DNA of 64,000 nucleotides from Olivibacter sp. XZL3 (lineage in GTDB: Bacteria > Bacteroidota > Bacteroidia > Sphingobacteriales > Sphingobacteriaceae): positions 124,001-188,000 of the forward strand of contig NZ_SBJH01000067.1 of assembly GCF_004368405.1 (NCBI RefSeq), written 5' to 3'. A program made the translations under genes and the position numbers. Below are positions 6,995 through 58,930 of this stretch, one piece after another; within the stretch, counting starts at the first letter, position 1; each line of letters opens with the position of its first letter. The notes under the pieces are model-generated. The model saw nothing but the letters and a program-made list of their open reading frames with translations. It was not told the DNA's origin and did not search any database.

Positions 6995-7645
6995 CTATCG
7001 TAGATCTACAATCTCCATCCCAGGATAGTCGGTCTTGTCAAATATAAAGGTTTTGGAAGTAACTTTAACATTAGGCGTAAAATTTTGGATGGTATAGGTA
7101 TAAAGACTTCCGCTTTTATCGAAAACGGTGACATCGTGAATCTGATTGATTGATTTATCTAAGCGCAACCGAACCTTAACATAAGATACCTTACCGTCAG
7201 TAGGAATAAGGTCTATCACACTTAGGGATTTGCCTCCAATTGTCTCGCTTTTCGCAGCAGGATACTTAAAACCCTCACTATAAAACGAAAAAATATTAGC
7301 CGGCGTAATGGAACCCGACTGTTCGCCGTCCGCTTCGGTAATCTGTACTTCTTGCTCTTCCTTTAACACATGCCATTGCTGCTTCCCATCAGAAATCATC
7401 ACCTGATCATTCAGGGTAATGCGGTATCTGTTGGTTCGGGGTTCTACGATCAACTCACCCTTTTCATCCACCGTTATTTGCTTTTGCTGATTGGTAGCGG
7501 TTAAGGTAAAGTTGATCTTCGCGGTCCGATAAGACTGATACTTCTCGCGCAAGGTATTTAACAACTTTTCAGTTGCCGGATCGTTTTGACCAAAAGCCGA
7601 CAGACCGCAGGCAATAAAAATTATCATGGACATTATTTTCTTCAT
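6995..7645 (-). CDS. LolA-like outer-membrane lipoprotein carrier protein
   Basis: About 216 residues. An N-terminal signal peptide ends near the AFGQ motif around residue 20. The rest is rich in beta strands typical of the LolA half-barrel. In the family LolA shuttles lipoproteins through the periplasm from the LolCDE complex to the outer membrane; Bacteroidota carry several LolA-like proteins, so the exact client is unknown. The ATG at 7645 (MKK) is preferred over the GTG at 7654 because it gives a standard signal peptide. It lies 104 bp downstream of ftsK on the same strand, an arrangement I recall as common in Bacteroidota. Confidence 0.88.
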   Translation of the reverse strand: MKKIMSMIIFIACGLSAFGQNDPATEKLLNTLREKYQSYRTAKINFTLTATNQQKQITVDEKGELIVEPRTNRYRITLNDQVMISDGKQQWHVLKEEQEVQITEADGEQSGSITPANIFSFYSEGFKYPAAKSETIGGKSLSVIDLIPTDGKVSYVKVRLRLDKSINQIHDVTVFDKSGSLYTYTIQNFTPNVKVTSKTFIFDKTDYPGMEIVDLR

Positions 7646-7758
7646 ATGATACACTTATAACGCAACTACGGTAAGTGGAACAAATGGACAAAACCGATAA
7701 GTTGCTTGAACCTTAGACATACTAACCAGCTAAATGTTTAATTTCGCTTTGATTTCTT

Positions 7759-57091: not shown

Positions 57092-57127
57092 ATGGTGTAG
57101 GTAACGAGGGTGTTCAAGAGTTTCACC

Positions 57128-57193
57128 CTGCCGTCGTCTCGACCGTAGAGCCAAGGGCTCAACGCCCTCTCATCACGGTTCGAGGTGACGCAG
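57128..57193. repeat. Large intergenic palindromic element
   Basis: Left arm 57128-57146 (CTGCCGTCGTCTCGACCGT) pairs with right arm 57175-57193 (ACGGTTCGAGGTGACGCAG), with two single-base bulges and two G-U pairs. Small inner hairpins lie in the 28-nt loop. It lies between the transketolase genes and the sigma factor. The arms resemble dispersed palindromes I recall from related genomes, which is inference. Confidence 0.65.
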
Positions 57194-57239: not shown

Positions 57240-57785
57240 ATGGAAGATTCAATAATAATTGAAAAATTTTCTAACGAAAGAACTCGAAACGAGGCTTTTA
57301 ACTTGTTGCTAAAAAAATACCAACAACGGATTTATTGGCATGTCCGAAGGTTGGTGGTAGATCATGACGATGCTGATGATCTCGTGCAAGACGTTTTTGT
57401 AAAGGTTTGGAAAAATTTAGCGAACTTTAGAGCAGATGCTCAGCTCTATACTTGGCTTTATCGCATTGCCACGAACGAATGCATCACTTTTCTCAACAAA
57501 AAAAAGCAGCGTCAAAATATATCCTTAGATGATGATTCTGCTTCTTACCTGTCTGATACCCTTACCACAGGTAGTTACTTTAATGGAAATCAGGCCCAGC
57601 TGAAATTACAACAAGCGTTATTGACTTTACCAGAGAAACAACGACTTGTTTTTAACATGAAATATTTTGACGATCTTAAGTATGATGAAATATCGGATAT
57701 TCTTGGCACGAGTGTTGGCGCACTAAAAGCGTCCTACCATTTAGCTGTAAAAAAAATTGAGCAATTTTTTAATGATCACGATTAA
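57240..57785 (+). CDS. ECF RNA polymerase sigma factor
   Basis: A 181-residue sigma-70 family factor of the extracytoplasmic function type. Region 2 spans about residues 20-85, with DDADDLVQDVFVKVWK and TWLYRIATNECI for -10 recognition and core binding. Region 4 (about 120-175) has the helix-turn-helix LPEKQRLVFNMKYFDDLKYDEIS...SVGALKASYHLAVKKI. There is no region 1 or 3. The next genes, 33 bp and then 5 bp apart, encode a membrane protein and a periplasmic protein, the layout of a sigma, anti-sigma and sensor cassette. It is therefore predicted to be held inactive by the downstream membrane protein. Confidence 0.93.
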   Translation: MEDSIIIEKFSNERTRNEAFNLLLKKYQQRIYWHVRRLVVDHDDADDLVQDVFVKVWKNLANFRADAQLYTWLYRIATNECITFLNKKKQRQNISLDDDSASYLSDTLTTGSYFNGNQAQLKLQQALLTLPEKQRLVFNMKYFDDLKYDEISDILGTSVGALKASYHLAVKKIEQFFNDHD

Positions 57786-57818
57786 ACCTTTTCTTGTGGT
57801 CTACATCTAAGAGTTACT

Positions 57819-58523
57819 ATGAGCACTATGGACAATAAACGTAATTATCAAGATGATTTAGCCGGTATAAAAGGGTTACCGCTCAATCCAAAGGATACGC
57901 CATTTATTGTGCCTTCGGATTATTTCAACACCTTGGAAGCTAAGATTAAGCGCCGTGTTGCCATCATGTCCGATGCAGAAGCTAGTTTCGAGGTACCGAA
58001 GCAGTATTTTGAATCGCTTAGTGACCGTATTTTTGCGAGGATAGAAAATGAAAGCTATCAAAACGACGAATTTGTTTCGCAAGAGGAAGTAAAAGAGAAA
58101 CCTTTCATCATCGAACTAAGGAAAGAAGTGCCTACATCCGGCTTTGTTGCCCCTCCTCAATACTTTGACGTATTGAGCGAAAAAATCAAGGCGGCGGTAG
58201 ATCCTCTAAACCTTGAAGAAAATACGAGAGAAATTTCGTTTCCAAGAAAAAAGAAGCGGTATATGTCCTTATGGATGCGCTACGCCGCTGCAGCCTGCAT
58301 AACGATCGGTTTAGGCGTTTATGGCTTTTTTCAATATCAATCAAACAGCTTTGAACGCAAACTGAAAGACATACCGGAGAATGAGATTGTGAGTTATTTG
58401 CAATATTACGGAGAAACTGGGGATGCCGCTTTGCTCGAAGCTCAATTTGATGGAGTTGTTCAAATGAACCAACCAACTTTTTCAGAAAAAGATATAGAAG
58501 CCTACTTGGATTACAGTATCTAA
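57819..58523 (+). CDS. Putative membrane anti-sigma factor with three 19-residue repeats
   Basis: A 234-residue single-pass membrane protein. The cytoplasmic part carries three copies of a 19-residue motif starting at F29, F57 and F109: F-x-[VA]-P-x-x-Y-F-x-x-L-x-x-[KR]-I-x-x-x-[VI]. A positive patch (PRKKKR, 142-147) precedes the membrane helix (about 152-173), so the N-terminus should face the cytoplasm and the last 60 residues the periplasm. The tail has two related [DE]-I-x-x-Y-L-x-Y segments near 189 and 225. I recognise no classical zinc anti-sigma motif. An anti-sigma role is inferred from topology and from its place between the sigma factor and a periplasmic protein. Confidence 0.82.
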   Translation: MSTMDNKRNYQDDLAGIKGLPLNPKDTPFIVPSDYFNTLEAKIKRRVAIMSDAEASFEVPKQYFESLSDRIFARIENESYQNDEFVSQEEVKEKPFIIELRKEVPTSGFVAPPQYFDVLSEKIKAAVDPLNLEENTREISFPRKKKRYMSLWMRYAAAACITIGLGVYGFFQYQSNSFERKLKDIPENEIVSYLQYYGETGDAALLEAQFDGVVQMNQPTFSEKDIEAYLDYSI

Positions 58524-58528
58524 AAGAA

Positions 58529-58930
58529 ATGAATAAATTATTTTTTACATATATGCTGTTGCTTGCTTCTATCTTCACTGTAAAGGCTCAAGATAGAGAC
58601 CAACAGCACCAGTTTAAACAAATTGAGGCCGCGAAAATTGCTTATATCACAAAGGAGCTTTCCTTAAGTCCTGCCGATGCCGAGCGCTTTTTCCCTTTAT
58701 ATAACCAATATCAAAGAGAAATGCGAATGTTAATTCATCAACGGAGAACAAAAACCGGTAAAAAGAGAAATGAATTAGAGTACGATTCGGAGGTATTAGC
58801 ACTAAAGATGCGTTACCGTGATGCGTTCATTCCGATAATAAATGCGCAGCGAACAGCTAAGTTTTTCGAAGCCGAACGCGAGTTTAGGGAACAGTTATTG
58901 CAGGAGCTGAAAGCTAGGAGAAACGAATAA
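58529..58930 (+). CDS. Periplasmic Spy/CnrX-like helical protein
   Basis: A 133-residue exported protein. A signal peptide ends near residue 20 (VKAQ), and the rest is a highly charged, all-helical protein. The segment ELSLSPADAERFFPLYNQY resembles the LTxxQ-type helices of the Spy, CpxP, ZraP and CnrX families of periplasmic sensors or chaperones. It starts 5 bp after the membrane protein's stop, so translational coupling is likely. By analogy with cnrYXH-type systems it could be the stress or metal sensor acting on the membrane protein. The ligand is unknown and the family match is moderate. Confidence 0.78.
   Translation: MNKLFFTYMLLLASIFTVKAQDRDQQHQFKQIEAAKIAYITKELSLSPADAERFFPLYNQYQREMRMLIHQRRTKTGKKRNELEYDSEVLALKMRYRDAFIPIINAQRTAKFFEAEREFREQLLQELKARRNE

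Follow-up and report, generated by a model that had tools for sequence, protein, structure and literature searches.

A tandem-repeat membrane protein is a candidate anti-sigma factor in a widespread sigmaE-like cassette of Bacteroidota

The window analysed here, a 64,000-nucleotide stretch of DNA from Olivibacter sp. XZL3 (contig NZ_SBJH01000067.1, positions 124,001 to 188,000), carries a trio of genes encoding an extracytoplasmic function (ECF) sigma factor, a single-pass membrane protein and an exported Spy/LTXXQ-like protein (Table 1). Judged from sequence, our best reading is that the membrane protein represents an anti-sigma family not recognised before, in control of a sigmaE-like response to envelope stress, and we consider it likely that the cassette works as an envelope-stress switch of the sigmaE kind in Bacteroidota, with this protein as its anti-sigma factor. 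The reading draws on conserved gene order, on a tandem VPxxYF motif in the membrane protein and on a promoter element that straddles the stop codon of the sigma gene. An earlier note on this DNA had described the three open reading frames (ORFs), the 33 bp between the sigma and membrane-protein genes and the 5 bp between the membrane-protein and Spy-like genes, all of which we confirmed. It had also called the cassette possibly new, whereas what we found is a widespread system with one published likely relative.

A neighbourhood survey showed that the gene order is conserved far beyond chance, as expected of a dedicated sigma/membrane/periplasmic cassette. Matches to the membrane protein were found at 206 loci, 187 of them distinct and weighted towards the window's own family. 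Among the distinct relatives at E ≤ 1e-10, a sigma gene lies directly upstream in 137/138 and a Spy-like gene downstream in 138/138; the sole relative without an upstream sigma gene (L032) is at a contig end. At E ≤ 1e-5 each neighbour is present in 167 of 171. The earlier note had named occurrence mostly away from sigma genes as the finding that would count against it, and clear relatives of the membrane protein were not found in such places. We also approached the cassette from the sigma side, using the 80 best sigma relatives in named genomes, two of which lie at a contig edge, leaving 78 loci with room. At all 78 the membrane-protein position is occupied by an ORF, whose hydropathy peak exceeds 1.2 in 76 (not L216 or L229), and a Spy-like gene was found in 75 (not L264, L284 or L290); 72 carry the VPxxYF motif as written below. 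Named carriers include Sphingobacterium, Pedobacter, Mucilaginibacter, Hymenobacter, Dyadobacter, Dysgonomonas and Mariniphaga.

A single-sequence search with the membrane protein found relatives in 32 of 60 near genomes, and a profile at E ≤ 1e-10 found them in 245 of 251 genomes of the family; over the phylum, where the threshold was E ≤ 1e-3 and weak matches are counted, 98 of 296 sampled genomes have one. Not all of the phylum matches are real, since 10 of the 89 best matches read in context had neither a sigma neighbour nor the motif, the strongest of these at E 1.3e-7. A further family, apparently Bacteroidaceae, had matches in 49/61 genomes, and one Bacteroides-like genus of it in 41/41. 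When 58 loci of the last two sets were read, 55 had the order sigma, membrane protein, Spy-like protein; in three loci of one genus (L333, L337 and L338) the order is membrane protein, Spy-like protein, sigma. Several Bacteroides-like genomes carry two cassettes, and a second, diverged one was read in six loci (L375-L378, L380 and L381). These second cassettes have a single motif, TPEGFF or similar, and a sigma gene with a different upstream promoter variant.

The sigma factor is of the ECF type, as the earlier note had proposed. It matches Pfam Sigma70_r2 at 65.7 bits (cut-off 24) and Sigma70_r4_2 at 57.3 bits (cut-off 25.7), has the ECF architecture of regions 2 and 4 only, and among the 25 NCBIfam models listed passes the cut-off of the ECF superfamily alone. 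In a fold search with a read-through chain of sigma factor and membrane protein, the sigmaE chains 1or7 and 4lup were among the closest solved structures; the matches listed were mainly sigma factors, and the search is thus uninformative on the repeats.

The membrane protein contains three copies of F-x-[VA]-P-x-x-Y-F-x-x-L-x-x-x-I, with VP or AP at residues 31, 59 and 111. The pattern [VAIL]P..YF..L...I matched it three times, while in 20,000 shuffles it was matched once in three of them and never more often. A repeat profile built from the family scores all three copies (Table 1). In the unit, about 31 residues long (median period 31), a VPxxYF turn leads into an amphipathic helix whose leucine and isoleucine residues are regularly spaced. 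Copy 3 is the one with which single-copy relatives align, and its P112, Y115, F116 and L119 are invariant in 28 aligned rows. Over the 138 loci, three copies are most frequent (77 proteins), followed by two (20), five (16), one (12), four (8) and six to eight (five). Copy number is constant at three in the window's own genus (5/5) and in one large genus (28/28 loci read). Two other genera are variable, one with 5 to 8 copies over 9 loci and the other with 3 to 6 over 12 loci. A single copy, close to the membrane helix, is usual among the Flavobacterium-like and Bacteroidaceae-type members read. Two 450-residue relatives (L096 and L107) have several degenerate YFxxFxxRV-like units and are flanked by a sigma gene on one side and a weakly Spy-like gene on the other.

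There is one hydrophobic stretch in the window protein, preceded by lysine and arginine (K/R). In the 138 relatives K/R residues average 4.0 before the membrane helix and 1.0 after it, and since the N side is the richer in 132/138, the repeats should be on the cytoplasmic side. The tail beyond the helix is 61 residues long in the window and has a median of 69 among the relatives; it is acidic in 136/138, and the Spy-like partner is basic in 138/138.

The earlier note had suggested an unconventional anti-sigma factor, which agrees with what we found. The gene adjoins the sigma gene, and the protein spans the membrane with, by charge bias, a cytoplasmic N-terminus. The zinc motif HxxxCxxC occurs in 0/138 relatives, and the window protein matches no Pfam family at E ≤ 1 and passes no cut-off in the curated families scanned (Pfam and NCBIfam). 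Pfam thus shows no four-helix anti-sigma domain, in a part of the protein where the structural model described below is of low confidence. Its sole NCBIfam match is to NF052375, 'anti-sigma factor', over residues 119-184, at 15.3 bits, far below the cut-off of 100; this model weakly matches 7/26 Bacteroidaceae-type members at E ≤ 0.01 (best E 6.4e-7). When PDB sequences were searched with profiles from alignments A3 and A1, no convincing relative emerged, the lowest E values being 0.026 and 0.31, respectively. The window's own genome holds a second sigma/membrane-protein pair (L128, G000:C99:52076-56255), which is only weakly similar and without the VPxxYF motif.

FecR-like partners serve many Bacteroidota ECF sigma factors, and inhibition by the VPxxYF family is deduced rather than directly seen. 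The membrane protein might accordingly be an activator or membrane anchor that the sigma factor needs, comparable to the pro-sigma function of FecR-type proteins. We regard this as improbable. No FecR match was found by Pfam on the window protein at E ≤ 1 or among the matches listed at E ≤ 0.01 for 28 members, and in a published likely relative of the cassette, cirYZ of Phocaeicola vulgatus, deletion of cirZ raises the expression of cirY, spy and the next two genes (PMC13114119, from the part of that report available). According to the same part, cirYZ is a sigma/anti-sigma pair with a co-transcribed Spy-like gene and is induced more than 100-fold in colitis (PMC13114119). The CirYZ-Spy operon shares with the window cassette the order ECF sigma, anti-sigma, Spy-like gene, and its genome has a second such locus, as do the Bacteroides-like genomes with two cassettes mentioned above. 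It differs in the two further co-induced genes, and the repeat family, promoter element and phylum distribution are not described in the part of the report available (PMC13114119). As a likely relative, with CirZ placed by gene order, the operon gives the anti-sigma reading its best experimental support, of an indirect kind. For the Bacteroides-like locus L315 an identity with CirYZ was not established, as the downstream genes described for cirYZ are missing there (PMC13114119, in part).

We then derived a promoter element from the regions upstream of the sigma gene. A dyad count over 240 such regions showed, beside A-runs, an excess of TAAAC plus GTCTAA at fixed spacing (up to 42 versus at most 21 in shuffles). 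The refined element, TTAAACCTTT-N12-NGTCTAA, is present upstream of sigma in 84/240 regions at a cut-off reached by about 2% of shuffled regions, with a median position 50 bp before the sigma start and a spacer of 12 in 71 of the 84 sites. Scores above 15 were reached by 75/240 upstream regions versus 13/720 random segments of the same loci, some of which may overlap cassette sites. When loci were grouped into lineages by locus number, the window's group being mostly Sphingobacteriaceae, the upstream element was common outside the window's lineage (69/117) and rare within it (15/123). The earlier note had expected a sigma-type promoter upstream of 57240; none was found there (best score -3.7), and the element instead sits inside the cassette.

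The profile trained on sites upstream of sigma alone was then applied to the junctions between genes. A sigmaE-like element, TTAAACCTTT-N12-NRTCTAA, straddles the sigma stop codon, with a score above 11 at the junction of sigma and membrane-protein genes in 215/234 cassettes. Among the controls, the next junction gave 1/234 and the region after the Spy-like gene 1/162, while the interior of sigma gave 0/234, the reverse strand 3/234 and shuffled sequence 1/234. Every cassette of the window's group has the junction element (119/119), as do 96/115 elsewhere, and the -35 block lies at an identical offset from the stop codon in 172. In the window itself the -35 block overlaps the stop codon and the -10 block ends 8 nt before the ATG of the membrane-protein gene. 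The distance from AAC to RTCTAA is 17 bases, the AAC-N17-TCTAA spacing of Escherichia coli sigmaE promoters.

A Bacteroidaceae-type set had the junction element in 54/64, and the ten misses are informative about what it belongs to. Three have the sigma gene behind the Spy-like gene, and their promoter (scores 23.6-26.8) precedes the membrane-protein gene by about 50 bp; one (L351) has a promoter nearer the membrane-protein gene (score 26.6); and six are the diverged second cassettes, each with a variant, TTTAAC..TTCTAA, upstream of its own diverged sigma gene (six of six). Since the element stands ahead of the membrane-protein gene even when sigma has moved, it follows that gene and not the stop codon as such. 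For the same reason, the predicted internal promoter means that the sigma factor should induce its own inhibitor.

In 174/215 cassettes the junction element ends 4-10 nt short of the next start codon in frame, where a translation signal would lie, and the element could instead act at the RNA level, as a signal for translating or processing the mRNA between genes one and two. We give this little credence: the identical two blocks with the same spacing recur about 50 bp upstream of sigma in the 84 cassettes and at a similar distance ahead of the membrane-protein gene in the three loci without sigma in front, the element also precedes lipoprotein and lolA genes (below), and the variant blocks go with a diverged sigma in all six second Bacteroides-like cassettes.

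The earlier note's label of 'Spy/CpxP/CnrX-like' for the third protein is fair. By eye, its signal peptide covers about residues 1-20. The window protein reaches no Pfam cut-off (Metal_resist E = 0.41); in an alignment of 65 rows, the window protein plus 64 relatives, 19 match LTXXQ (Spy/CpxP) and 13 match Metal_resist at E ≤ 0.01. Its predicted model is helical and confident, with a predicted local distance difference test (pLDDT) value of 93. Foldseek gave no significant match with this model, and Spy, CpxP and ZraP are missing from the matches listed, which excludes nothing. CnrX is among the weak fold matches (Z 5.9, 90 residues aligned, root-mean-square deviation 5.5) and not above background. 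Metal ligands such as those of CnrX show no conservation: His, Cys and internal Met are all absent from the 65-row consensus; of the H, M, C, D and E residues of the window protein, only E116, plus the start Met, is kept in more than half of the rows.

These features bear on two further alternatives. The first is that the cassette is an ordinary metal sensor of the CnrYXH type, with which it shares its three kinds of protein: a sigma factor, a small membrane anti-sigma factor and a periplasmic helical sensor. This is very improbable, given the consensus without conserved His, Cys or internal Met, a gene order that differs from that of cnrYXH of Cupriavidus, a third protein that is exported rather than membrane-anchored as in Cnr, and presence in 245/251 family genomes, which is not expected of a specialised metal response; nor was any sequence relation to CnrYXH detected. 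The second, to which we assign somewhat less than an even chance, is that the Spy-like protein is an effector only, namely a periplasmic Spy-type chaperone, while the membrane protein senses alone, for example through regulated proteolysis of its tail. It is consistent with the LTXXQ matches, with the lack of conserved ligands and with the position of the Spy-like gene behind a sigma-type promoter, and in the part of the report available the P. vulgatus counterpart is read as a Spy chaperone whose gene is the most induced in colitis (PMC13114119). Against it stand the co-conservation with the membrane protein (138/138), which is stronger than expected for one effector among several, the complementary charges of tail and partner, though these do not covary, and the weak CnrX fold matches, themselves not above background. 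The proposal that the third protein is the sensor is not favoured over its rival; a chaperone of the Spy type, controlled in the same way, would account for the data just as well.

Taking gene order, repeats, topology signs, promoter element and candidate target sites together, we infer the following sequence of events for the sigmaE-like switch. At rest, the N-terminal cytoplasmic part of the membrane protein, with 1 to 8 VPxxYFxxLxxxI amphipathic-helix units, would sequester the ECF sigma factor at the inner membrane, with one helix spanning the membrane and an acidic tail of about 69 residues (61 in the window) in the periplasm. Envelope damage, sensed by the tail alone or with the basic Spy-like partner bound to it, would release the sigma factor, which would then act at TTAAACCTTT-N12-NRTCTAA promoters, chiefly at the one that straddles the stop codon of the sigma gene. 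Envelope genes would be turned on together with the inhibitor and the Spy-like protein, and this negative feedback would return the system to rest. In many lineages the second promoter copy about 50 bp upstream of sigma may add positive feedback; as no sigma-type promoter was found ahead of the window sigma, the loop in the window's lineage would be purely negative. A more ambitious version, suggested by the variation of copy number within some genera (range 1 to 8 overall), is that each tandem helix unit docks on sigma, that copy number sets the capacity for sigma and that the stop-codon promoter gives a leaderless or near-leaderless inhibitor mRNA, so that the missing RpoE-like anti-sigma would be a tunable, multivalent sponge with negative feedback; we think this version unlikely in full.

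Candidate targets were sought with the same element. The exact element occurs 18 times in 25 genomes versus 2 times for a reversed control. Four of the five genomes of the window's own genus have exactly two exact sites, one at the cassette and one ahead of the gene for a glycine/tyrosine-rich lipoprotein; in the fifth the cassette alone has an exact site, and the lipoprotein ortholog has a weaker one (score 21.0). Among matches to this lipoprotein, 6/7 have a site with a score above 11. Similar-looking lipoproteins follow sites in three other genera, a likeness by appearance only, and a search with the lipoprotein of the window's genome did not recover them. The window holds a second match to the element, 5' of a lolA-like gene (Table 1); among lolA orthologs, 6/29 have a site with a score above 15, while the reverse strand has none above 15 and two above 11. 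The lipoprotein and LolA genes are thus likely further targets of the sigma factor, as far as the sites tell. Elsewhere in the window's genome, a promoter match with one mismatch lies 40 bp before the gene of an exported DUF6600 protein (L387), another candidate target.

Several results weigh against the envelope-stress switch with the membrane protein as its inhibitor. The lolA site is found in only 6/29 orthologs, and at up to two mismatches the element is not enriched in the window's own genome (66 versus 71 for the control), which points to a probably small regulon. No upstream promoter was found ahead of the window's sigma gene, and in the six remaining sigma-side loci, all Hymenobacter, the motif is degenerate or was missed by the pattern. 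Tail charge and Spy-like partner charge do not covary in the 138 relatives (rho -0.06), and CirZ is linked to the VPxxYF family through gene order. Finally, we modelled sigma factor and membrane protein as a single read-through chain, replacing the sigma stop with a residue. Alignment A7, without sigma-only rows, was used for this, since a mixed alignment that included such rows misplaced the first motifs of the membrane protein onto sigma and their omission cured it. The model is of low confidence (pLDDT 69, predicted template modelling score (pTM) 0.39); region 2 of sigma is confident and helices are predicted over the repeats, with blocks over the first copy at 77-85, and no contact of sigma with the repeats was observed in a model this weak.

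The overall kind of system, an ECF sigma with an anti-sigma and a periplasmic partner, is already known. E. coli RpoE-RseA-RseB has an RpoE-like sigma, a single-pass anti-sigma, a periplasmic partner and envelope targets in common with the cassette; it differs in that the window protein has repeats and no RseA-type domain in Pfam, and in that the partner is Spy/LTXXQ-like and not RseB. The E. coli rpoE operon reportedly contains a sigmaE promoter in front of rseA, so a sigma factor that drives its own inhibitor may not be a new principle. What we did not meet in the literature surveyed is the fusion of such a promoter to the sigma stop codon over so wide a range. Dma/Das (ECF21) and EcfO-Reo likewise pair Bacteroidota anti-sigma factors with ECF sigmas, and according to the parts of the reports available these anti-sigma factors carry a C-terminal outer-membrane beta-barrel (PMC13088901, PMC9308784); the window family instead has a tail of 61 residues in the window protein and of 69 in the median of the 138 relatives, and not a barrel behind a long periplasmic linker. 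In the part of the literature surveyed, we found no description of the VPxxYF family, its copy-number variation or the stop-codon promoter.

In the part of a census of Bacteroidetes available, only 6% of ECF sigma factors were found beside a class I anti-sigma domain that could be recognised, and a conserved anti-sigma is noted to be missing from the RpoE-like group (PMC7406223). For this reason, and assuming that the window sigma belongs to that published group, the VPxxYF membrane protein is a candidate for the missing partner of Bacteroidetes RpoE-like ECFs. Part of this anti-sigma gap could be filled by a widespread cassette that combines an unclassified repeat protein with a promoter that can be read and with candidate targets among envelope genes, and envelope-stress control could become open to testing in Bacteroidota of the gut and of the environment. 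Why an inhibitor should have 1 to 8 copies of one helix is a further question raised by the repeats.

Table 1. Positions of the cassette, its parts and the second promoter match within the window.
Feature	Position	Strand	Evidence
ECF sigma factor gene, 181 aa	57240..57785	+	Sigma70_r2, r4_2 above cut-offs; TIGR02937 105 bits (cut-off 42.9)
Predicted sigmaE-like promoter TTAAACCTTT-N12-CATCTAA	57782..57810	+	Score 24.3
Single-pass membrane protein, 234 aa, proposed anti-sigma factor	57819..58523	+	Sigma gene directly upstream in 137/138 relatives
Repeat copy 1 (PFIVPSDYFNTLEAKI)	57897..57968	+	Repeat profile, residues 27-50, 26.6 bits
Repeat copy 2 (SFEVPKQYFESLSDRI)	57984..58058	+	Repeat profile, residues 56-80, 31.4 bits
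Repeat copy 3 (GFVAPPQYFDVLSEKI)	58140..58205	+	Repeat profile, residues 108-129, 17.7 bits
Transmembrane helix, about residues 155-173	58281..58337	+	Hydropathy peak, YAAAAC signature, K/R bias
Acidic extracytoplasmic tail, net -8	58338..58520	+	
Exported Spy/LTXXQ-like helical protein, 133 aa	58529..58930	+	Helical model; relatives match LTXXQ / Metal_resist
Second window match to promoter element, 5' of lolA-like gene	7713..7741	-	Score 21.3, one mismatch
LolA-like outer-membrane lipoprotein carrier gene, candidate sigma target	6995..7654	-	PF03548 LolA 8.4e-13, above cut-off

Between a transketolase gene and the sigma gene, the window has a hairpin-forming stretch at 57107-57190 (DNA folding z -2.3). 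It was suspected to be a repeat element, and no second copy was found in the genome; some near relatives have, by eye, terminator-like hairpins at the matching position.

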